From an uncultured Acidimicrobiales bacterium (lineage in GTDB: Bacteria; Actinomycetota; Acidimicrobiia; Acidimicrobiales; AC-14), in NCBI GenBank assembly GCA_902805665.1, contig CADCTB010000152.1:1-52218 (forward strand): a stretch of 52,218 nt of DNA. The letters are read 5' to 3'. This document shows positions 15,022-23,178 of the stretch, piece after piece. Both the position numbers and the translations under genes were made by a program. The notes beneath the pieces are model-generated. The model did no database searches. It was not told the DNA's origin and was given only the letters and a program-made list of their open reading frames with translations. Every line of letters begins with the position of its first letter. The first letter of the stretch is position 1.

Positions 15022-15498
15022 ATGAGCCAGTTGACCGTGTCGAAGCTCGCCGAACAGGCCGGCACCTCGGCGGACACCGTGCGCTACTACGAGCGCATCG
15101 GCCTGCTCCCGGAGGCCGAACGGAGCGCGTCGGGATACCGGCTCTACGGGGACGAGGCGGTGGAGCGACTCCGCTTCATCAAGCAGGCCCAGCGTTTCGG
15201 CCTGCGCCTCGAGGCCATCGGCGAGCTACTCGACGTCCGCCGTCGGGGGCTCTGCCCGTGCGGCCACACCCGCCGGATGCTCGAGGACCGGGTGGCCGAG
15301 CTGGACGAGGAGATGTCCTCCCTGGCCCGGCTGCGCGCCGGCATCGTCACCATGATCGACGAATTGCCCGAGTCCGTCACCCCGGGTCCGGGCTGGCGAT
15401 GCAGCTCCGAGCTGATCCAGATCGGCCCGGCAAACCCGGTTCGAGACCGACCGACCGACAACGACGACAACAACAACAACAAGAAGGAGATGCCATGA
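15022..15498 (+). CDS. MerR-family heavy-metal-type transcriptional regulator
   Basis: A 158-aa protein with the MerR winged helix (TVSKLAEQAGTSADTVRYYERIGLLPEAERSASGYRLYGDEAVERLRFI), a long dimerisation helix, and candidate metal ligands in LCPCGH (C78, C80) plus C127 in WRCSS. This three-Cys layout is like metal-sensing MerR proteins, though the metal cannot be named. It most likely represses and activates its own promoter through the palindrome immediately upstream. The C-terminal tail is an odd Asp/Asn/Lys run (NDDNNNNKKEMP) whose codons contain the AAGAAGGAG ribosome-binding site of the next gene. Its stop overlaps that gene's start (ATGA). Confidence 0.93.
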   Translation: MSQLTVSKLAEQAGTSADTVRYYERIGLLPEAERSASGYRLYGDEAVERLRFIKQAQRFGLRLEAIGELLDVRRRGLCPCGHTRRMLEDRVAELDEEMSSLARLRAGIVTMIDELPESVTPGPGWRCSSELIQIGPANPVRDRPTDNDDNNNNKKEMP

Positions 15499-15623
15499 GC
15501 GAGGACAGCTGCAACTGCGGCTGCTCGGCCAAGCCCGAGATCGAGACCCGGACCCCCGACGACTGCGGCTGCGGCTGCGGAGGAACGGGCGAGAAGGAGC
15601 CGAAGGAGGACGTGGTCGCCTAG
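15495..15623 (+). CDS. Six-cysteine metallothionein-like peptide (42 aa)
   Basis: The ORF is too short for the track. It reads MSEDSCNCGCSAKPEIETR... and ...DDCGCGCGGTGEKEPKEDVVA. Two CxCxC clusters (C6/C8/C10 and C24/C26/C28) are separated by 13 residues, and the rest is acidic and hydrophilic. It overlaps merR by 4 nt (ATGA), has a strong AAGGAG site and is followed by a hairpin terminator, so it is the last gene of a two-gene operon under a metal-type MerR promoter. The inferred role is binding soft metal ions (Zn, Cd, Cu or similar) in the cytoplasm. No homology to a named metallothionein family is claimed. Confidence 0.82.
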   Translation: MSEDSCNCGCSAKPEIETRTPDDCGCGCGGTGEKEPKEDVVA

Positions 15624-16553: not shown

Positions 16554-17591
16554 TCAGACCGTGGTGTGGCGGTGGTCGTCGACCTGATCGGTGATCTTGC
16601 CCATGAACGACTCTCGACCGCCGGTGATGAAGTCGTAGGGGAACCCACGCTCGATGGCGCTGACCGTGTCGAGCCGGGCCATCTCCTCGGCGCCCAGGAC
16701 GACGTCGACGCACCCGATGTTGTCCACCAACTGGGCGGCCTTGCGGGCGCCGATCAGCGGGATCACCGTCGGCGACTGCTGACGGACCCAGCTCAGGGCC
16801 ACCTGGGAGGCACTGGCGCCGACGTCTTCGGCCACGGCCGCGACCTCGCGGGCGATCGCCATCTTGTGCTCCTCCAGGGAGCCCCAGCCCGCGGAGTGGA
16901 TGCGGCCGCCGTCGCCCGTGGGGTCGTCGTTGTACTTGCCGGTCAGGAGGCCGGCGCCCAGCGCCCCCCAGGCCGTGAAAGCGATGTCGAGGTTGACGCT
17001 CATGGGCAGGAGCTCACGCTCGGCGTTGCGCTCGATCAGGCTGTACTGGCTCTGCAGCGCGCTGAAAGGAGTCCATCCCCGCAGCTCGGCCACGGTGTTG
17101 GCCCGGGAGATCACCCACGCCGGCGCATCGGAGATGCCGACGTAGAGGATCTTCCCCGCTCGTACCTGATCGTCGAGGGCGCGCATCATCTCCTCGATCG
17201 GTGTGAACGGGTCCCAGATATGGGCCCAGTAGAGGTCGATGTAGTCGGTGCCGAGCCGCCTCAGGCTGGCATCCAGCGACTCCACCAGGCTCTTGCGGTG
17301 GTTGCCGCTGGCGTTGGGGTCGTTCCCGTCCCTGCTCAGCGTGTACTTGCTGGAGACGACGAAGTGACCACGGTCGCCAGCGACGAACTCCCCGACGAAG
17401 CTCTCCGCCGTGCCGTTCGTGTAGCGGTTGGCGGTGTCGATGAAGTTGCCGCCGGCGCCGGCGAAGGCGTCGAACATGGCCTTCGACTCGTCCTTGTCCG
17501 CACCCCAGCCCCAGTCGGGGCCGAAGGTCATGGTGCCGAGCGCCAGCTCAGAAACTCGGAGCCCGGAGCGGCCCAGAAGCTTGTAGCGCAT
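16554..17591 (-). CDS. Aldo/keto reductase (YajO/YghZ-like group)
   Basis: From ATG 17591 (ribosome-binding site GGGGAGAGGA) the product is 345 aa: MRYKLLGRSGLRVSELALGTMTFG. Tetrad residues are visible: Asp/Tyr in FIDTANRYTNG, Lys in VSSKYTL, His in WAHIWD. The IPLIGARKAAQLVDNIG segment is the cofactor-binding C-terminus of the long-form bacterial subfamily. The track ORF continues upstream to 17816 without family sequence. It forms an apparent operon with the hydrolase and is divergent from the secreted repeat protein. Confidence 0.93.
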   Translation of the reverse strand: MRYKLLGRSGLRVSELALGTMTFGPDWGWGADKDESKAMFDAFAGAGGNFIDTANRYTNGTAESFVGEFVAGDRGHFVVSSKYTLSRDGNDPNASGNHRKSLVESLDASLRRLGTDYIDLYWAHIWDPFTPIEEMMRALDDQVRAGKILYVGISDAPAWVISRANTVAELRGWTPFSALQSQYSLIERNAERELLPMSVNLDIAFTAWGALGAGLLTGKYNDDPTGDGGRIHSAGWGSLEEHKMAIAREVAAVAEDVGASASQVALSWVRQQSPTVIPLIGARKAAQLVDNIGCVDVVLGAEEMARLDTVSAIERGFPYDFITGGRESFMGKITDQVDDHRHTTV

Positions 17592-17689
17592 GTGCGTCCT
17601 CTCCCCAAACGACCGACTGTACGGCGGCCGGCGGGGACCGGCCCCCGGAATCGTGGCGCCCGCCGTCCGGGTTGGTAGGGTTGGCGAGC

Positions 17690-17702
17690 GGAAACGCTTT
17701 CC
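17690..17702. promoter_or_regulatory. Palindrome GGAAACGCTTTCC, candidate operator
   Basis: A perfect odd-length dyad (GGAAA-CGC-TTTCC) in the divergent region between the aldo/keto reductase and the secreted repeat protein, about 30 bp upstream of the latter's start. The shape resembles LacI-family operators, but no such regulator is in the window. Confidence 0.35.
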
Positions 17703-17731
17703 CCATGGCGGTGAACGAGGTGGATGTGACC

Positions 17732-18712
17732 ATGACTTCCAAGACAGCGGCCTTGTCGGCCACGGCCCGACGCCGGGCCGAGGTGGCTTTCGCCTTCGCC
17801 CTCGCGGCTGCGGCACTGGTCGGGGCGGTTCGTCCGGCCGAGGCCCAGCTCGTCAGCGGCACGGGTGGCAGCGGCGTGGCCACCGGCACCGCCAACGGCG
17901 GCAGCGGCGGTGGCTCCACCGTCACCGTCAACCCCACTGCCAAGTCGGGGAACTCGGGCGCAGCCACCGCCCAGTCGGGCGCCACCAACACCGGCGACAC
18001 CGGCCCCGCGGCGTCGACCGCGGCGGCCCAGCCCGTCGCCCAGTCCGGCGACTCCGGCCAGACCGGCGGCTCGGGGGTGGCCACCTCGTCGCCCACCGCC
18101 ACCAACTCCGCCATCCTGGGCTCGGCGACAGCCGTGGGCGGCACCGTCTCCACCGGCGGCACCGGCAGGTCGGGTTCCACGGGCGCGGCGATCGCCGCAG
18201 GCGGGGCCGACTCCTCGGCCAACAGCGGCGCCGGCTCCAACGCCGCCGCCCTCTCGGGTAACACCGGCGTGGCCGCCAACGACACCACGGCAGCGTCGGT
18301 GGGCGGCCAGGGCGGTCCCGCAGGCGTGGCCCTGCCCGTAACAGTCGGCGGCGGCCCGGTGATCAACCTGATCTCACTGCTGGCACCCGGCGGCCTGGTT
18401 GCCGCCAACGGCGGCGCAGGTGTCGGCTCTGCGGCGGCGGGCGGCGGTTCGGGCGGCACGTCGATCCTCTCGGCCATGCCCTTCGCCACGTCCGGCAGCA
18501 GCGGCTTCACCACCGCCGGTTCCAGCTCCAGCAACTTCGGGCGCACCGGTCCGGCCACCAGCGCATCGCTGTCCGGGCCGCTCACCCTCACGGGCGGGTC
18601 CGGCCCCACCGGTCCTTCCGGCTCGGGCCCGTCGGCGTCGACCCCCTCTGCGACCAACACCGCCATCCTCGGCAGCGTGCTGGTCCTCGGAGGCACGGCA
18701 CCGCTTCCCTGA
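17732..18712 (+). CDS. Secreted Gly/Ser/Thr/Ala-rich repeat protein
   Basis: From ATG 17732 the product is 326 aa. Signal peptide: MTSKTAALSATARRRAEVAFAFALAAAALVGAVRPAEA, cleaved before QLVSG. The mature chain is low complexity with loosely repeated SGNSGAATAQSG / SGDSGQTGG / SGNTGVAAN units. A longer repeat occurs twice: SPTATNSAILGSATAVGGT mid-protein and TPSATNTAILGSVLVLGGT at the extreme C-terminus. There are no Cys residues and almost no charge in the mature part, suggesting an extended or surface-coating protein. Its stop is 30 bp before the Thr/Asp-rich peptide gene. Upstream in-frame starts (GTG 17726, ATG 17705) are possible. No named family. Confidence 0.75.
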   Translation: MTSKTAALSATARRRAEVAFAFALAAAALVGAVRPAEAQLVSGTGGSGVATGTANGGSGGGSTVTVNPTAKSGNSGAATAQSGATNTGDTGPAASTAAAQPVAQSGDSGQTGGSGVATSSPTATNSAILGSATAVGGTVSTGGTGRSGSTGAAIAAGGADSSANSGAGSNAAALSGNTGVAANDTTAASVGGQGGPAGVALPVTVGGGPVINLISLLAPGGLVAANGGAGVGSAAAGGGSGGTSILSAMPFATSGSSGFTTAGSSSSNFGRTGPATSASLSGPLTLTGGSGPTGPSGSGPSASTPSATNTAILGSVLVLGGTAPLP

Positions 18713-18730
18713 GCGCCCGCATCGGCGGTT

Positions 18731-18736
18731 TATAGT
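18731..18736 (+). promoter_or_regulatory. -10 box TATAGT for leaderless Thr/Asp peptide transcript
   Basis: TATAGT ends 6 nt before the ATG at 18743, placing the expected transcription start on or next to the ATG. The -35 region is weak (CCTGAG-like). The arrangement supports the 77-aa ORF start and a leaderless mRNA. Confidence 0.6.
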
Positions 18737-18742
18737 GCCGCG

Positions 18743-18976
18743 ATGACCAATCTCGTGACAGGGCTGACGGACACCGACATCACCACGCGCCGCGCCGAGG
18801 GCACCCGCATGGCGGCCGACACCGACTCCACGGACGCGCCGGCCACCGACTCCACCGACACGAGCGACTCCACCGACACCACCGACCAGAGCGACGCGCC
18901 CGGTACCGACACCGACGCCACCGACGCTGACTCGGACAGCACCGACGCCACCGACGTCGACGGCACCGACGCCTGA
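18743..18976 (+). CDS. Thr/Asp/Ser-rich small protein (77 aa), candidate substrate peptide
   Basis: The first ~27 residues (MTNLVTGLTDTDITTRRAEGTRMAADT) are mixed; the remaining 50 are almost only Asp, Thr, Ser and Ala in irregular STD/TDA/DTD repeats, with no Cys and no hydrophobic core. A -10 box immediately upstream supports expression. The stop lies 13 nt before the conserved N-terminus of a JmjC/cupin oxygenase in the +1 frame. Such a leader-plus-repetitive-core layout next to a 2-oxoglutarate oxygenase suggests a modified peptide. Alternatively it is an acidic N-terminal extension joined to the oxygenase by +1 frameshifting at TGAC. No homologue is recognised. Confidence 0.6.
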   Translation: MTNLVTGLTDTDITTRRAEGTRMAADTDSTDAPATDSTDTSDSTDTTDQSDAPGTDTDATDADSDSTDATDVDGTDA

Positions 18977-18989
18977 CCACGCACCGGGC

Positions 18990-20177
18990 CTGGCCCGGTG
19001 CGTCGGCGACGTCGCCGAGTTCCTCGACCATTACTGGACCAGGGCGCCGCTGCACCGCGCCGGGGCCGACCCCGCCGCGTTCGCCGACCTGTTCTCGGTC
19101 GACGACGTCGACCGGTTCGTCTCCTCGTCTTCGCCCCGCCTGCCCACCTTCCGGCTGGTCCGTGACGGCCGCCCCCTCGACCCGTCGCGCTACACCCGCA
19201 CGGCCAAGGTCGGTGGCCAGTCGGTGGCCGGCATGGGCGACCCAGGCCGCATCTTCGACGAGTTCAAAGCGGGGGCCACCATCGTCTTCCAGGGGCTGCA
19301 GCGGTCGTGCCCGCCGCTTACCCGCTTCTGCCGCGCCCTGGAGCTGGAGCTGTCCCACGGGGCCCAGGCCAACGCCTACGTGACCCCGGCCGGCGCCCGT
19401 GGCCTTGGCGTGCATTACGACACCCACGACGTCTTCGTGCTCCAGCTGGCCGGCACCAAGGCGTGGTCGATCCACGAGCCGGTCCTCGCCGATCCGCTGG
19501 CGTCCCAGCCGTGGAAGGGCACCGCCGCCGACGCCGGCCCGCCGATCCTGTCGGTGGAGCTGCCGGCGGGCGACTGCCTGTACGTGCCCCGGGGCTTCCT
19601 CCACTCGGCCCGGGCCCAGGAGGCGCTTTCGGCCCACCTCACCATCGGGATCGTCACGACGACCTGGCACGACGTCGTGCGGGAGGTGGTGGCCGGTGTC
19701 GCCGACGAGCCCGAGTTCCGTCGCTCGCTGCCGCCGGGGTACGCCGCTGACCCCGCCGGCCTCGCCGCCGGCGTGGAGGAGACGGTGGCCGGGCTGCGGA
19801 AATGGCTCGACGGCGTCGACGCCGAGGCGGTGGCGGAGGCCACGGCCCGCCGCTTCCTCGCGGCCCGCCCGCCGGTCCTGGCCGGGCAGCTCCACCAGCT
19901 CGGCATGCTCGACCGGCTCGCCGACCGCTCGCTCCTGCGCCGCCGTGAGGGCTCCGTCTGCCATCTGGCGGGCACAGGGGATCGCCTCATCGTGGTCCTG
20001 GGCGGGGGCCGGGAGCTCGACATGCCGGCCGCGCTCGAGCCGGTGATGGCTCGGATCGCCGCCGCGGGCCCTTTCCGCCTGAGCGAGCTGGAGGACCTCC
20101 TCGACGGCCCCAGCCGCCTGGTCCTCGCTCGCCGCCTGGTGGGCGAAGGGTTGTTGGAGATCGTCGACCTTGGCTGA
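18990..20177 (+). CDS. JmjC/cupin-fold 2-oxoglutarate oxygenase (ribosomal-oxygenase-like), start codon unclear
   Basis: Conserved family sequence begins LARCVGDVAEFLDHYWTRAPLHRAG at about 18990, but this frame has no ATG, GTG or TTG between a stop at about 18762 and the GTG at 19224. I give 18990, a CTG, as the best-fitting start (395 aa). Starting at 19224 would lose about 78 conserved residues, including TAKVGGQSVAGMGD. Iron ligands are readable as HYD (H142, D144) in GVHYDTHDVFVLQLAG and the distal His (H205) in YVPRGFLHSA, the JmjC pattern of YcfD/NO66-type hydroxylases, followed by a helical dimerisation and winged-helix-like C-terminus. The product is probably a protein or peptide hydroxylase. 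The stop overlaps the next gene by 8 nt. Confidence 0.82.
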   Translation: MARCVGDVAEFLDHYWTRAPLHRAGADPAAFADLFSVDDVDRFVSSSSPRLPTFRLVRDGRPLDPSRYTRTAKVGGQSVAGMGDPGRIFDEFKAGATIVFQGLQRSCPPLTRFCRALELELSHGAQANAYVTPAGARGLGVHYDTHDVFVLQLAGTKAWSIHEPVLADPLASQPWKGTAADAGPPILSVELPAGDCLYVPRGFLHSARAQEALSAHLTIGIVTTTWHDVVREVVAGVADEPEFRRSLPPGYAADPAGLAAGVEETVAGLRKWLDGVDAEAVAEATARRFLAARPPVLAGQLHQLGMLDRLADRSLLRRREGSVCHLAGTGDRLIVVLGGGRELDMPAALEPVMARIAAAGPFRLSELEDLLDGPSRLVLARRLVGEGLLEIVDLG

Positions 20178-21069
20178 CCCCGTCTGCTCGGCGGTGTCGA
20201 TCGCCCATCACGAACCACTCCAGGCCACTGCGTCGATCGTGCGCAACTGGTTGCTGGTCGAGCACCCGGGCGCATGGGGCCCGGATGCCCTGACCCAGAG
20301 CGGGCTTCCGGCCGGACTGGCTGCCGGTCTCGCCGAGCGGTCGCGCCGGCACGGGTTCCGCACCCTGCTCCTGCGCCGACCGGAGCGGCCCTCCGACGGC
20401 TCCCGCCAGTGCTTCGTAGCCCACTCCGGCCGGGACAAGCGCTGGATCGAGGAGGGCGTGCTGGCGAACGTCGAGGAGCTGCTCGACCTCGACTTCGGCC
20501 CACTGGCCCAGGGCGACCCGGTCGGGCTCGGCACCATGCGGGCCGCCCCCCTGTACCTGGTCTGCACCAACGGCCGCCACGACCCGTGCTGTGCCAACCT
20601 CGGGCGGCCGGTGGCCCGGGCCTTGCACGGCCGGGCCGATGGCGCAGTCTGGGAGTCCTCGCACTACGGAGGCGATCGCTTCGCCGGCAACCTGGTCTGC
20701 CTGCCCCATGGGATGTACTTCGGGCGCCTGTCGCCCACCGACGCAGTGAGGGTCGTCGACGCCTACGAGGCGGGGATCGTCGACCTCGACCACTACCGGG
20801 GCCGGTCCGGGGAGCCGTTCGCGGCCCAGGCCGCCGAGCACTTCCTTCGCCGCCAGGAGGCGCTGCTGGGCGTCGACGACCTTGTCGTCTCGGGGTACAA
20901 CCGGCAGGCCGAGGGGGTGGTGGAGGTCCGGTTCGACGGCCCCGGTGGGCGGGCCTACCACGTGAGGGTCCAGGTGCAACCGGCCTCCGAGGCCCGGCTC
21001 CTGAGCTGCGGTGCCGGCACCGAAGGCCGCCCGCCGACGTATGCGCTGGTCGACGTGAACGGCGCTTGA
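20170..21069 (+). CDS. Sucrase/ferredoxin-like protein
   Basis: A 299-aa protein of the Suc/Fer-like family, with a thioredoxin-like ferredoxin domain. The signature is LVCTNGRHDPCCANLGRPVARAL (three Cys available for an iron-sulfur cluster), followed by WESSHYGGDRFAGNLVCLPHGMYFGRL with a fourth Cys. The family is poorly characterised; an electron-transfer role is inferred. The TTG start at 20170 overlaps the oxygenase stop (TTGGCTGA), showing translational coupling, so it may supply electrons or assist iron chemistry for that oxygenase. The N-terminal AHHEPLQATASIVRNWLLVEHPGAWG is typical of the family. Confidence 0.88.
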   Translation: MADPVCSAVSIAHHEPLQATASIVRNWLLVEHPGAWGPDALTQSGLPAGLAAGLAERSRRHGFRTLLLRRPERPSDGSRQCFVAHSGRDKRWIEEGVLANVEELLDLDFGPLAQGDPVGLGTMRAAPLYLVCTNGRHDPCCANLGRPVARALHGRADGAVWESSHYGGDRFAGNLVCLPHGMYFGRLSPTDAVRVVDAYEAGIVDLDHYRGRSGEPFAAQAAEHFLRRQEALLGVDDLVVSGYNRQAEGVVEVRFDGPGGRAYHVRVQVQPASEARLLSCGAGTEGRPPTYALVDVNGA

Positions 21070-21086
21070 ACAGCGTCGGGCGGGCT

Positions 21087-21102
21087 TGTGAAATGAATCA
21101 CA
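21087..21102. promoter_or_regulatory. Crp-type site TGTGA-N6-TCACA
   Basis: TGTGAAATGAATCACA matches both half-sites of the Crp/Crp-Mtb consensus exactly and sits in the 164-bp intergenic region, 132 bp upstream of the HAD-like gene. The AT-rich patch stands out from the surrounding GC-rich sequence. TTGTGA could double as a -35 element with TAGAGG near 21111. Confidence 0.6.
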
Positions 21103-21233
21103 TAGTGGGGTAGAGGCTGGTAAGGTGCGCGTACAGCCACTGACAACAGGTCCTCCGTCCGTCCGCTCCGAACAGCCGAGCCCGACGACCAACCAACCTG
21201 CGGTGCCGCACCTTTCACGAAGGGATCTTCCCC

Positions 21234-22415
21234 ATGCCCAACTTCATCGGCGCGCCTGAACCCGAGGCGCCTCCACCCAGACAAGCCAACCAGCGGGCCG
21301 CCTTCTTCGGCCTCGACACCTTGATCCCCGGCTCCAGCCTGTACCTGCTGGCCCAGGGCCTGCAGCGGCGGCACTTCTACGGCCGGGCCGACCTCCTGGC
21401 CTTCGCCTGGCAGCGGCTGGTGTTCCGGGCCGGCCCGGCGAGCGAACCGCAAGTGCGCACGTCGCAGGACGCCGCGCTCTCGTTCGTGGCCGGCAAGCAC
21501 CGTCCCGAGCTGCGGGCCCTGGCCCGGGAGATCGCCGACGAGCGCATCGTGCCCCAGGTCTATCCGGACCTCGCTGATCTCATCGAGTCCCACATGGCCG
21601 CGGGCGCCCTCACCTTCGTCACCACCGCCGCGCCGGCGGAGCTGGCCGAGATCGTCGCCCACGGCCTGGGCATGACGGGCGGGCTGGGCACGACGGCCGA
21701 GGTCGACGACGAGGAGCGCTACAGCGGGCGGCTGACCGGCACCGTGCTTCAGGGCACGGCCAAGGCGGGCGCCGTCCACGCCCATGCCATGGCGGCCGGC
21801 ATCGACCTGTCGGCCTCCGTCGCCTATTCCGACTCGATCAACGATCTGCCCCTCTTGGAGCTGGTCGGCTGCGCCGAGGTGGTCAATCCCGACCGCCAGC
21901 TGCGCAAGGTGGCCCAGCGGCGGGGATGGCGGGTGCACGACGTACGGCCCGCCGCCCGCCGGCCCATGGAGCCGGGCGCGGCCCCGGTGCCCAACCGCCT
22001 GGCGGCGCTCGGACTGGCCTCGCCGGTGGAGTCCGACGGCGCCCCTGTCCGCCGGGGTGCGGCCCACCACTTCACCACCGACGACCCCGCCGCCCTGCTC
22101 CGTGAGCTCGAGGACAGTGGCCGGTTCCGCCGGGACACCCGACTGGGCGCCATCTTCCACCGCGGCCAGGTCTCCCTGCGAGAGGTGTCACCGACCCACA
22201 GCCTCCACATCACCGTGGGCAAGGGCAACCGGGTGTCGGCGCACGTCGACCGGTACTCGCCGTTGGCCAACCACCAGCCGGAGCAACTGGCCCGCTACGC
22301 CCTCCACCGCATTGCGGCGCACAATGTCGCCGGGATCGCGGGCGGGCTGTTCCGCCTCATCCCCGGCCCACGGCGGCGCGCTCGGTCCTGCGCTCGCCAG
22401 ACGCCCCGCTCCTAG
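21234..22415 (+). CDS. HAD-IB-like protein with altered catalytic motif I and extra C-terminal domain
   Basis: A 393-aa protein. Residues 20-235 follow the HAD-IB (SerB-like) fold: LIPGSSLYLLAQGL, motif II-like TFVTTAAP, and a sound motif III/IV AYSDSINDLPLLELVG. Motif I, normally FFDLDNTL, reads FFGLDTL: the nucleophilic Asp is replaced by Gly and one residue is lost. It may therefore be inactive as a phosphatase. From about residue 270 an extra domain (GAAHHFTTDDPAALLRELEDSGRF...HSLHITVGKGNRVSAHVDRYSPL) is present that I cannot name. ATG at 21234 has an AAGGGATC site. Its 3' end overlaps the convergent gene by 59 bp. Confidence 0.75.
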   Translation: MPNFIGAPEPEAPPPRQANQRAAFFGLDTLIPGSSLYLLAQGLQRRHFYGRADLLAFAWQRLVFRAGPASEPQVRTSQDAALSFVAGKHRPELRALAREIADERIVPQVYPDLADLIESHMAAGALTFVTTAAPAELAEIVAHGLGMTGGLGTTAEVDDEERYSGRLTGTVLQGTAKAGAVHAHAMAAGIDLSASVAYSDSINDLPLLELVGCAEVVNPDRQLRKVAQRRGWRVHDVRPAARRPMEPGAAPVPNRLAALGLASPVESDGAPVRRGAAHHFTTDDPAALLRELEDSGRFRRDTRLGAIFHRGQVSLREVSPTHSLHITVGKGNRVSAHVDRYSPLANHQPEQLARYALHRIAAHNVAGIAGGLFRLIPGPRRRARSCARQTPRS

Positions 22416-23178
22416 CCGCGGTGAGGCGCGCAGCCCCCGGCCGCGGGCGCCGGCTGAGGACCAGGGCGGTCGCCGCCGCCGAGCCGAGGACCAGAGCGGT
22501 GGGAAGCGGCCAGGACATGTCGTCCGACACCCGCGCCCGCGCCGGCGCCGGGGTCGCGGGCCCGGCCTCGGGGGTCGCGGCCGCCGGGGCCGCCGGGGGC
22601 GTGGGCGCCGGGGTAGGACGGGCCTGAGGGGCTCGCAGGTCCCCGGCCGTGACTTGGAAGCCGGGGCCGACGAGCAGTGCGCCGGGTGCCAGGTTGGCGA
22701 TCTCGGGCTCGTCGGGCGCCCATTCCCGCACGATCCGGCGGGCGGGATCGACCCCGATGCTCAGAGGGCTGGAGACGATGTCGCCGACCACGGGGATGGA
22801 GCACGGGTCGTCGCAGTAGATCACCTCGTACTCACCGGGGACGAGGTCGCCCGGCACGTCGAAGGTGAGGCTCACCCGTAGCTGGAGATACCCGAGGTGG
22901 GCCGTCCGCTCCACGACGAGCTCGCCCAGGTAGATGTCGGAGCGGAGCAGGGGGACACCAGGGGCGTCGCCCGCCGGCCGGAGGTACGCGTAGAACGGTT
23001 CGCCGGCGGCGGCGGGCGTCGACGCCCCGGTGTAGCCCACCATGGTGGCCGTCTGGCCCGGCTCGTAACGGTCCTGTACCGGCGACAGACGGCCCCCGCC
23101 GGCCGAGGCGGGAGCAGCCGAGCAGGCGAGCACGACGACCAGCACGGCGAACAGCGCCAGTGCCCGCCTCTCGACCAT
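22357..23178 (-). CDS. Exported, membrane-anchored hypothetical protein
   Basis: From ATG 23178 the product is 273 aa. It has a signal peptide (MVERRALALFAVLVVVLACSAAPASA), a beta-rich mature domain beginning GGGRLSPVQDRYEPGQTATMVGYTG with YCDDPCS near its end, a Pro/Ala-rich linker (PTPAPTPPAAPAAATPEAGPATPAPA), a transmembrane helix (SWPLPTALVLGSAAATALVL) and a basic tail. This is the layout of a cell-surface protein tethered to the membrane. No family is recognised. It is 11 bp from the stop of the SpoIID-like gene upstream, so probably co-transcribed with it. Confidence 0.78.
   Translation of the reverse strand: MVERRALALFAVLVVVLACSAAPASAGGGRLSPVQDRYEPGQTATMVGYTGASTPAAAGEPFYAYLRPAGDAPGVPLLRSDIYLGELVVERTAHLGYLQLRVSLTFDVPGDLVPGEYEVIYCDDPCSIPVVGDIVSSPLSIGVDPARRIVREWAPDEPEIANLAPGALLVGPGFQVTAGDLRAPQARPTPAPTPPAAPAAATPEAGPATPAPARARVSDDMSWPLPTALVLGSAAATALVLSRRPRPGAARLTAARSGASGERRTERAAVGRG

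Follow-up and report, generated by a model that had tools for sequence, protein, structure and literature searches.

Organization of the Locus

The window, which is the whole stretch of DNA analysed, is 52,218 nucleotides long and comes from an uncultured Acidimicrobiales bacterium (contig CADCTB010000152.1). Four ORFs are located on its forward strand, at the positions given by the first-pass annotation: a repeat protein gene (17732-18712), a gene of a 77 aa Asp/Thr-rich peptide (18743..18976), a JmjC oxygenase gene (18990..20177, 395 aa) and a gene of a Suc_Fer-like protein (20170..21069), which overlaps the JmjC stop codon by 8 bp. The first two intervals are 30 bp and 13 nt. The second stands as measured, with the qualification that it requires a CTG start for the JmjC gene, since homology begins at 18990 but the first ATG, GTG or TTG in this frame is not found before 19224. 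L013, L004 and L015, three other genomes of this family, likewise lack a usual JmjC start codon, and most homologues have an ordinary one.

A -10-like box, TATAGT, is located at 18731..18736 (+), 6 nt 5' of the peptide ATG. Boxes of the TATAGT/TAGAGT/TAAGAGT type are found at about the same distance in four relatives (L013, L014, L015 and L004), which suggests that the peptide transcript is probably leaderless and starts at the peptide gene. Sigma-70 promoter and terminator scans of positions 17500-22600 returned no match and did not pick up the TATAGT box, so it is regarded as putative. In the whole window, Rfam detected two tRNAs only. PADLOC gave no meaningful match.

The repeat protein had been counted as a member of the system by the first-pass annotation. 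It has no match in Pfam, and its relatives were found only in loci of the same genus (L002, L003, L013 and L014), so that it is considered a neighbour. A four-gene operon including it was rejected, as it is not co-conserved with the JmjC gene, and a HAD hydrolase, likewise confined to the genus, was also rejected as a member.

The JmjC Oxygenase

The JmjC protein matches the JmjC_2 family (PF08007) with an E-value of 1.1e-24. By analogy with ROX enzymes, the metal ligands would be His142 and Asp144 of the HYD motif (19413..19421) and the distal His205 (19602-19604), and Lys157 (19458-19460) is likely to bind 2-oxoglutarate. All four residues are invariant in 30 homologues. The AlphaFold2 model (mean pLDDT 92.6) has a double-stranded beta-helix fold; the closest solved structure is NO66, MINA53 is also among the closest, and the fold alignment with NO66 shows 22-25% identity. 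Judging by its family, modelled fold, metal site and lysine, the protein is a ROX-like 2-oxoglutarate oxygenase, and its earlier description as an oxygenase with an intact HxD...H site holds.

The C-terminal part (19932..20174) is predicted to fold as a winged helix, with strands followed by three helices. The fold matches that come after ROX proteins are PqqD, the PbtF RiPP recognition element (RRE), the McbB complex and ThcOx (E 0.19-0.27, probability 0.93-0.95). The domain can thus be called RRE-like in the model, although these RRE matches are weak (E ~0.2) and the winged helix of NO66 is matched more strongly. Likeness to RREs is common to NO66 and MINA53, which act on ribosomal proteins.

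The Asp-Rich Peptide and Its Association with the JmjC Gene

Of the 81 loci of a GTDB scan, 80 have, next to the JmjC gene, an ORF that combines the leader motif L-x-D-x-[DE]-I with an Asp-rich core; the exception (L034) is N-masked. An automatic rule, requiring the leader motif and an Asp-rich tail, recognised the peptide in 75/81 loci as against 0/287 other genes of the same loci, which served as the background. Apart from L034, the six misses of the rule proved on inspection to be near-misses or divergent peptides. In a separate actinobacterial sample, the peptide is present at all 29 loci (27 by the rule and two by eye). The pair occurs in five phyla, and in several loci the peptide is encoded on the opposite strand. 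In the tree, all 62 labelled rows are inside one group of 71 and none elsewhere. In the scanned flanks of distant RoxA-like PF08007 proteins (L140-L151), the peptide was not found. The JmjC family itself is patchy, being present in 58 of 397 actinobacterial genomes. The pairing is real, widespread and far beyond chance. The search for JmjC orthologues without an adjacent peptide, proposed in the first-pass annotation as a refutation, gave the opposite outcome; the 77 aa ORF is a real, conserved gene with a leader part, and it recurs next to its predicted enzyme as a predicted substrate should.

The leader contains the motif LTDTDI (18764..18781), whose DNA occurs only once in the whole 3.5-Mb genome and whose consensus across the family is [LI]-x-D-x-[DEQ]-I. 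Among the representative peptides, D occupies position 3 in 30/31 and I position 6 in 28/31, and this conservation makes the motif a candidate recognition sequence. The Asp-rich core (18815..18973) is the proposed modified region. When it is compared with the core of L013, 13 of the 48 aligned columns differ, but none of the 17 Asp columns does (P = 0.0011). Asp sparing gave P = 0.0011, 0.0022 and 0.0086 in the non-independent pairs of three genomes and P = 0.012 and 0.023 in two others; it was non-significant in most other pairs, which are mostly near-identical, and the aligner itself is biased towards Asp-Asp matches. No residue other than Asp and Ala occurs in all 31 cores, and the remaining residues vary freely. 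As only Asp of these two carries a functional group, it is the candidate site. Codon changes between the two closest peptides are mostly nonsynonymous (20 vs 5), indicating that the spacers evolve freely. The constancy of Asp could also be explained by what the peptide itself does, and not by its modification.

A small gene, a conserved leader and a variable core are traits of RiPP precursors, and a tailoring-enzyme gene next to the precursor gene is usual in RiPP pathways; the present loci show these traits, with the JmjC protein as the predicted tailoring enzyme. The peptides of the family are highly acidic, with a variable number of repeats. In acidobacterial and proteobacterial homologues, including alphaproteobacterial loci, the same leader is followed by a Tat signal and an Asp core. 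Searches of the peptide against Pfam and NCBIfam, even at E 5, revealed no family model beyond low-complexity noise.

The Suc_Fer-like Protein

The last gene, a single copy in the genome, encodes a protein of the Suc_Fer-like family (PF06999, E 1.3e-16; 61.7 bits vs the curated cut-off of 34.9). Cys132, His137, Asp138, Cys140, Cys141, His165 and Cys280 are invariant in 23 homologues, as is the ligand motif C-x4-HD-x-CC; Asp169, at the HxGG-D position, is conserved in 22 of them and replaced by E in one. The family and a conserved Cys/His set are shared with the [2Fe-2S] proteins Apd1 and Aim32. Apd1-type proteins have a bis-His/Cys ligand set with a second His ligand; in the protein studied here, HxGGD takes the place of this His, and the Apd1 set is not matched. 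A PDB sequence search gave no match.

The linkage of this gene to the JmjC gene, noted earlier in the window, is recurrent, as it adjoins the pair in 25/29 actinobacterial loci. It is, however, absent from nine of the ten Micromonosporaceae genomes tested that carry the peptide and JmjC genes, so the protein is not strictly required and is regarded as accessory. No description of a link between Suc_Fer proteins and 2-oxoglutarate oxygenases was found in the literature.

Proposed Pathway and Alternative Explanations

The reading that we favour, with a probability of about 0.58, is a RiPP-like cassette in which the JmjC enzyme binds the leader and hydroxylates the core Asp residues many times. 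The peptide gene would have a transcript to itself, probably a leaderless one. The leader of the peptide (L-T-D-x-D-I) would dock on the oxygenase, most likely on the C-terminal RRE-like winged helix, and the Fe(II)/2-oxoglutarate site would hydroxylate side chains of core Asp residues, C-beta being the likeliest position, and proceed along the many sites. Where present, the Suc_Fer protein, with a putative [2Fe-2S] cluster, may keep the iron of the oxygenase reduced or supplied. In acidobacteria and proteobacteria, the product would then be exported by the Tat route. The expected product is an acidic peptide with abundant 3-hydroxyaspartate, which could plausibly bind cations or metals.

The strongest competitor, clearly less probable but to be taken seriously, retains the leader-guided pathway with another oxidation: the JmjC protein would crosslink or macrocyclise the peptide, desaturate it, cleave its backbone, or hydroxylate Thr, Ser, Ala, Pro or His. 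The 2-oxoglutarate oxygenases of RiPP pathways are indeed chemically diverse, with backbone cleavage described for HEXXH enzymes (PMC12636437) and macrocyclisation also reported (Xia et al. 2025, as cited in PMC12710340), and Ala, too, is present in every sampled core. However, residues other than Asp vary freely, Asp is spared in the closest comparison, and the HxD...H...K site fits hydroxylase-type ROX enzymes.

It is rather unlikely that the Asp-rich protein is itself the working part, a repeat protein binding cations or minerals, which the JmjC enzyme merely tunes by few or regulatory hydroxylations, so that no RiPP is made. Its acidity, variable repeat number and Tat export in Gram-negative bacteria would suit such a role, as would the fact that no conserved leader protease was recognised among the recurrent neighbours, where annotated; it is possible that the protease is encoded elsewhere, unlinked. 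The strict leader across phyla and the constant adjacency to the JmjC gene suggest, on the contrary, obligatory processing.

Given that NO66 and MINA53 are the closest solved structures, the oxygenase might have a ribosomal protein as its substrate, with the peptide gene lying beside it by chance, but an association that spans phyla against a zero background, together with a distribution too patchy for a housekeeping ribosomal enzyme, makes this very improbable. Least credible of all, and largely ruled out, is that the Asp-rich stretch is the JmjC N-terminus, split by an assembly error or a programmed +1 shift at GCC-TGA-C: the missing usual start in the window and three relatives would agree with it, but the offsets between the peptide stop and JmjC homology (-14, -11, -18, -27 and -46) give three frame relations in close genomes, most homologues have an ordinary start, and several peptides are encoded on the other strand.

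Comparison with Known Systems

The first-pass annotation knew of no described system of this composition. This holds for the combination of the peptide, JmjC and Suc_Fer genes and for the precursor family, which were not found in the open-access literature, but not for the enzyme type. Bacterial PF08007 JmjC proteins with RRE-like domains, of the same Pfam family and with the same strand-then-helix C-terminal domain, were placed in RiPP-like contexts by Bregman et al. (2025, PMC12710340), in whose results on the RRE data set a precursor family, a leader motif, an Asp core and a Suc_Fer partner are all absent. In the biphenomycin pathway, the JmjC enzyme BipG hydroxylates an ornithine of the RiPP precursor (PMC12707348). 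BipG/BpmG are thus likewise JmjC 2-oxoglutarate enzymes acting on a RiPP core, but they modify one ornithine within a multi-enzyme pathway (PMC12707348, PMC12257519), whereas in the present loci usually no second modifying enzyme is apparent beside the JmjC protein, and the peptide core is densely filled with Asp. The residue proposed here, 3-hydroxyaspartate, is made in RiPPs by PesHI (PMC13060819) and by SmaO (as cited in PMC13097080); PesHI is, however, an MNIO enzyme acting on one defined residue, Asp21, and not on tens of sites (PMC13060819). NO66, MINA53 and YcfD/RoxA share the fold, the HxD...H site and the C-terminal winged helix, but their substrates are His or Arg of ribosomal proteins, and RoxA-like loci differ in that the Asp-rich partner gene was not found there.

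The broader proposal, which we hold tentatively and at somewhat less than even odds, is that these loci represent a widespread undescribed RiPP class. A single RRE-guided JmjC enzyme, helped by a Suc_Fer [2Fe-2S] protein, would hydroxylate repetitive precursors at many Asp residues to give poly-hydroxyaspartyl peptides, with Tat export following cytoplasmic modification in Gram-negative bacteria.

The analysis proposes a natural substrate for a large JmjC branch otherwise annotated just as 'cupin domain-containing' and defines a peptide family for which Pfam and NCBIfam have no model. It would also tie the ROX fold, including human NO66 and MINA53, to RiPP-type substrate recognition, suggest a use for Suc_Fer ferredoxins, and point to a possible source of poly-hydroxyaspartyl, potentially metal-binding peptides.

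Gene Organization and Starts

The draft genome holding the window is 3.5 Mb in size, and its closest named relatives are Acidimicrobiia MAGs. The first-pass annotation had proposed a hydroxylation system of four genes, encoding a repeat protein, an Asp/Thr-rich peptide, a JmjC oxygenase and a Suc_Fer protein. The four ORFs and their gaps of 30, 13 and −8 nt are confirmed in the window sequence; the reading frames are supported by third-codon-position GC, and the strong GC position shifts from the peptide to the JmjC gene at about 18920–19040. The cassette comprises the 77-aa peptide gene (18743–18976, + strand), the JmjC_2 (PF08007) 2-oxoglutarate oxygenase gene (18990–20177, +) and the gene of a putative [2Fe-2S] Suc_Fer-like protein (PF06999; 20170–21069, +). 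The whole genome encodes one JmjC_2 and one Suc_Fer protein, the neighbours at this locus.

The Gly/Ser/Thr-rich, secreted-looking repeat protein (17732–18712, +) has no match in Pfam or NCBIfam and is confined to same-genus loci, where it is conserved beside the cassette. A HAD-IB family hydrolase (TIGR01490; 21234–22415, +) with an extra C-terminal region lies downstream, also in same-genus loci only. At 15022–15623 (+), the gene of a MerR-like regulator containing a CPCGH motif precedes a tiny, metallothionein-like ORF rich in Cys (MSEDSCNCGCSAKPEIETRTPDDCGCGCGG...).

No ATG, GTG or TTG precedes the conserved LARC/LSRC start of the JmjC frame in the window or in the related genomes L013, L004 and L015; all four have CTG at that point, and the offsets from the peptide stop to it are −14, −11, −18 and −27. 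The related L014 has an offset of −46 and a GTG start codon. A conserved frameshift joining the peptide and JmjC is excluded by three different frame relations. In the simplest reading, JmjC would start at CTG, with initiation coupled to translation termination of the peptide; most other JmjC homologues have ordinary start codons. TATAGT occurs at 18731–18736 upstream of the peptide gene, with similar boxes at about equal distance in four relatives; this conservation suggests a leaderless peptide transcript. Most inspected distant homologues have a purine-rich, Shine-Dalgarno-like sequence in its place.

Distribution of the Peptide Gene

GTDB species genomes were scanned with the JmjC protein, and 80 loci were kept. 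Almost every locus has a small ORF upstream of JmjC with an LTDEDI, LNDDDM or LSDDDI-type motif, followed by an Asp-rich, often repetitive stretch. An automatic rule (upstream same-strand ORF of 30–260 aa, motif within the first 30 residues, remainder with ≥10% Asp and ≤18% hydrophobic residues) matched 75 of 81 loci versus 0 of 287 other genes of those loci; an earlier version, whose motif differed slightly, gave 70/81 versus 1/287. Since the rule was tuned with sequences already seen, independent samples matter: in a later-fetched actinobacterial sample, 27 loci pass a similar rule and the remaining two are clear by eye (29/29). The adjacency on which the first-pass annotation depended holds, and the peptide gene is real.

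A tree built from 86 JmjC proteins places all 62 rows that bear the peptide within one group of 71, with four changes of the peptide label versus 18.1 when labels are shuffled. Two rows of this group labelled as lacking the peptide (L024, L125) were found to have it on later inspection. No such peptide was found in the scanned flanks of RoxA-like distant PF08007 proteins (L140–L151). The actinobacterial genome G1066 has four JmjC homologue matches, scoring below the peptide-bearing group.

In eight acidobacterial and four alphaproteobacterial loci, the peptide carries a Tat signal and is divergent from JmjC or nearby; three more proteobacterial loci encode Asp-repeat proteins, with a Tat signal visible in two. 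In the acidobacterial L105–L112, the precursor is divergent from JmjC and its Tat signal is immediately followed by Cys (ACPGGTDSD), so it may be a Tat lipoprotein. In L126 (G641, Pseudomonadota), two different leader-Tat-Asp precursors adjoin one JmjC gene, possibly representing one enzyme with two substrates.

Leader Motif and Core

The leader consensus is [LI]-x-D-x-[DEQ]-I, with Asp at position 3 in 30 and Ile at position 6 in 28 of 31 representative peptides. A degenerate DNA pattern of the motif has a single match across the genome, at 18764 (LTDTDI, 18764–18781). Core sequence depends on the lineage. Acidimicrobiia and Chloroflexota share DGTDA/DGTDG; Micromonospora, Actinoplanes and Agromyces carry EGPADGGANPxGHDGGADGSA units; and acidobacterial and proteobacterial cores have repeats of DPDKKPA, TDSDQA or TDADNG. 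Only Asp and Ala are common to all sampled cores. Compared with its nearest relative, the window differs in 13 of 48 core columns, none of them among the 17 Asp columns (P = 0.0011); as the aligner prefers Asp–Asp matches, this sparing is supporting evidence only. The same sparing is seen in two comparisons within a set of three genomes that includes this pair, and in two additional pairs; the remaining, mostly nearly identical pairs are uninformative. Spacer codon changes are mostly nonsynonymous.

JmjC Oxygenase and Suc_Fer Protein

The JmjC model (mean pLDDT 92.6) is nearest in fold to human NO66 (TM 0.72), then MINA53 and YcfD, and His142, Asp144, Lys157 and His205 are kept in 30/30 aligned homologues. 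Its C-terminal 80 residues are modelled as strands followed by three helices. The best PDB matches of this domain are again NO66, MINA53 and YcfD; PqqD, the peptide-bound PbtF RRE, the microcin B17 synthetase complex and ThcOx come next, with probabilities of 0.93–0.95 and E-values of only 0.19–0.27. The fold agrees with the published account of PF08007 proteins, which can have legitimate RRE-like folds and whose bacterial homologues occur in RiPP-like contexts (PMC12710340).

Suc_Fer lies directly downstream of JmjC on the same strand in 26 fetched loci (23 without duplicates), from Acidimicrobiia, Nitriliruptorales, Chloroflexota, Frankiaceae, Agromyces, Brachybacterium, Nakamurella and others, and follows JmjC in 25/29 loci of the independent actinobacterial sample. 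It is missing from 9/10 Micromonosporaceae and several Gram-negative genomes tested. The coupling proposed in the first-pass annotation stands as recurrent adjacency, and Suc_Fer, given these absences, is a putative helper rather than a requirement. Putative ligand residues of Suc_Fer are conserved, HxGGD taking the place of a second His.

Proposed Function

JmjC enzymes in RiPP pathways and RRE-JmjC fusions are already known. Neither a precursor family with the L-x-D-x-D-I leader and Asp cores, nor the Suc_Fer link and Tat-exported relatives, was found in the open literature searched or in family libraries. The gene pairing, leader, intact active site, RRE-like fold, Suc_Fer linkage and Tat signals in other loci are observed; beyond them, we propose that the leader would bind the JmjC C-terminal domain, the enzyme would hydroxylate Asp at multiple sites, Suc_Fer would act as a reductant or iron helper, and the product may bind metal. 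BipG is a JmjC enzyme that hydroxylates a RiPP core (PMC12707348), and 3-hydroxyaspartate is known from RiPPs in which enzymes of other types form it (PMC13060819, PMC13097080). The main rival to Asp hydroxylation is that JmjC carries out alternative oxidative chemistry.

Another JmjC-modified RiPP is probable at L130 (G661): a Nif11-like precursor (ending GCGIKGYTYSFPGCSLSGN) lies upstream of a more distant JmjC homologue. On a Streptomyces clavuligerus plasmid (L093), a 48-aa annotated hypothetical protein (MDDKKTSLEPDEIEVI...DNDPSDPPIAIADPDPFDPVI) is encoded upstream of a JmjC; it is a short, single-core version, convenient for chemistry.
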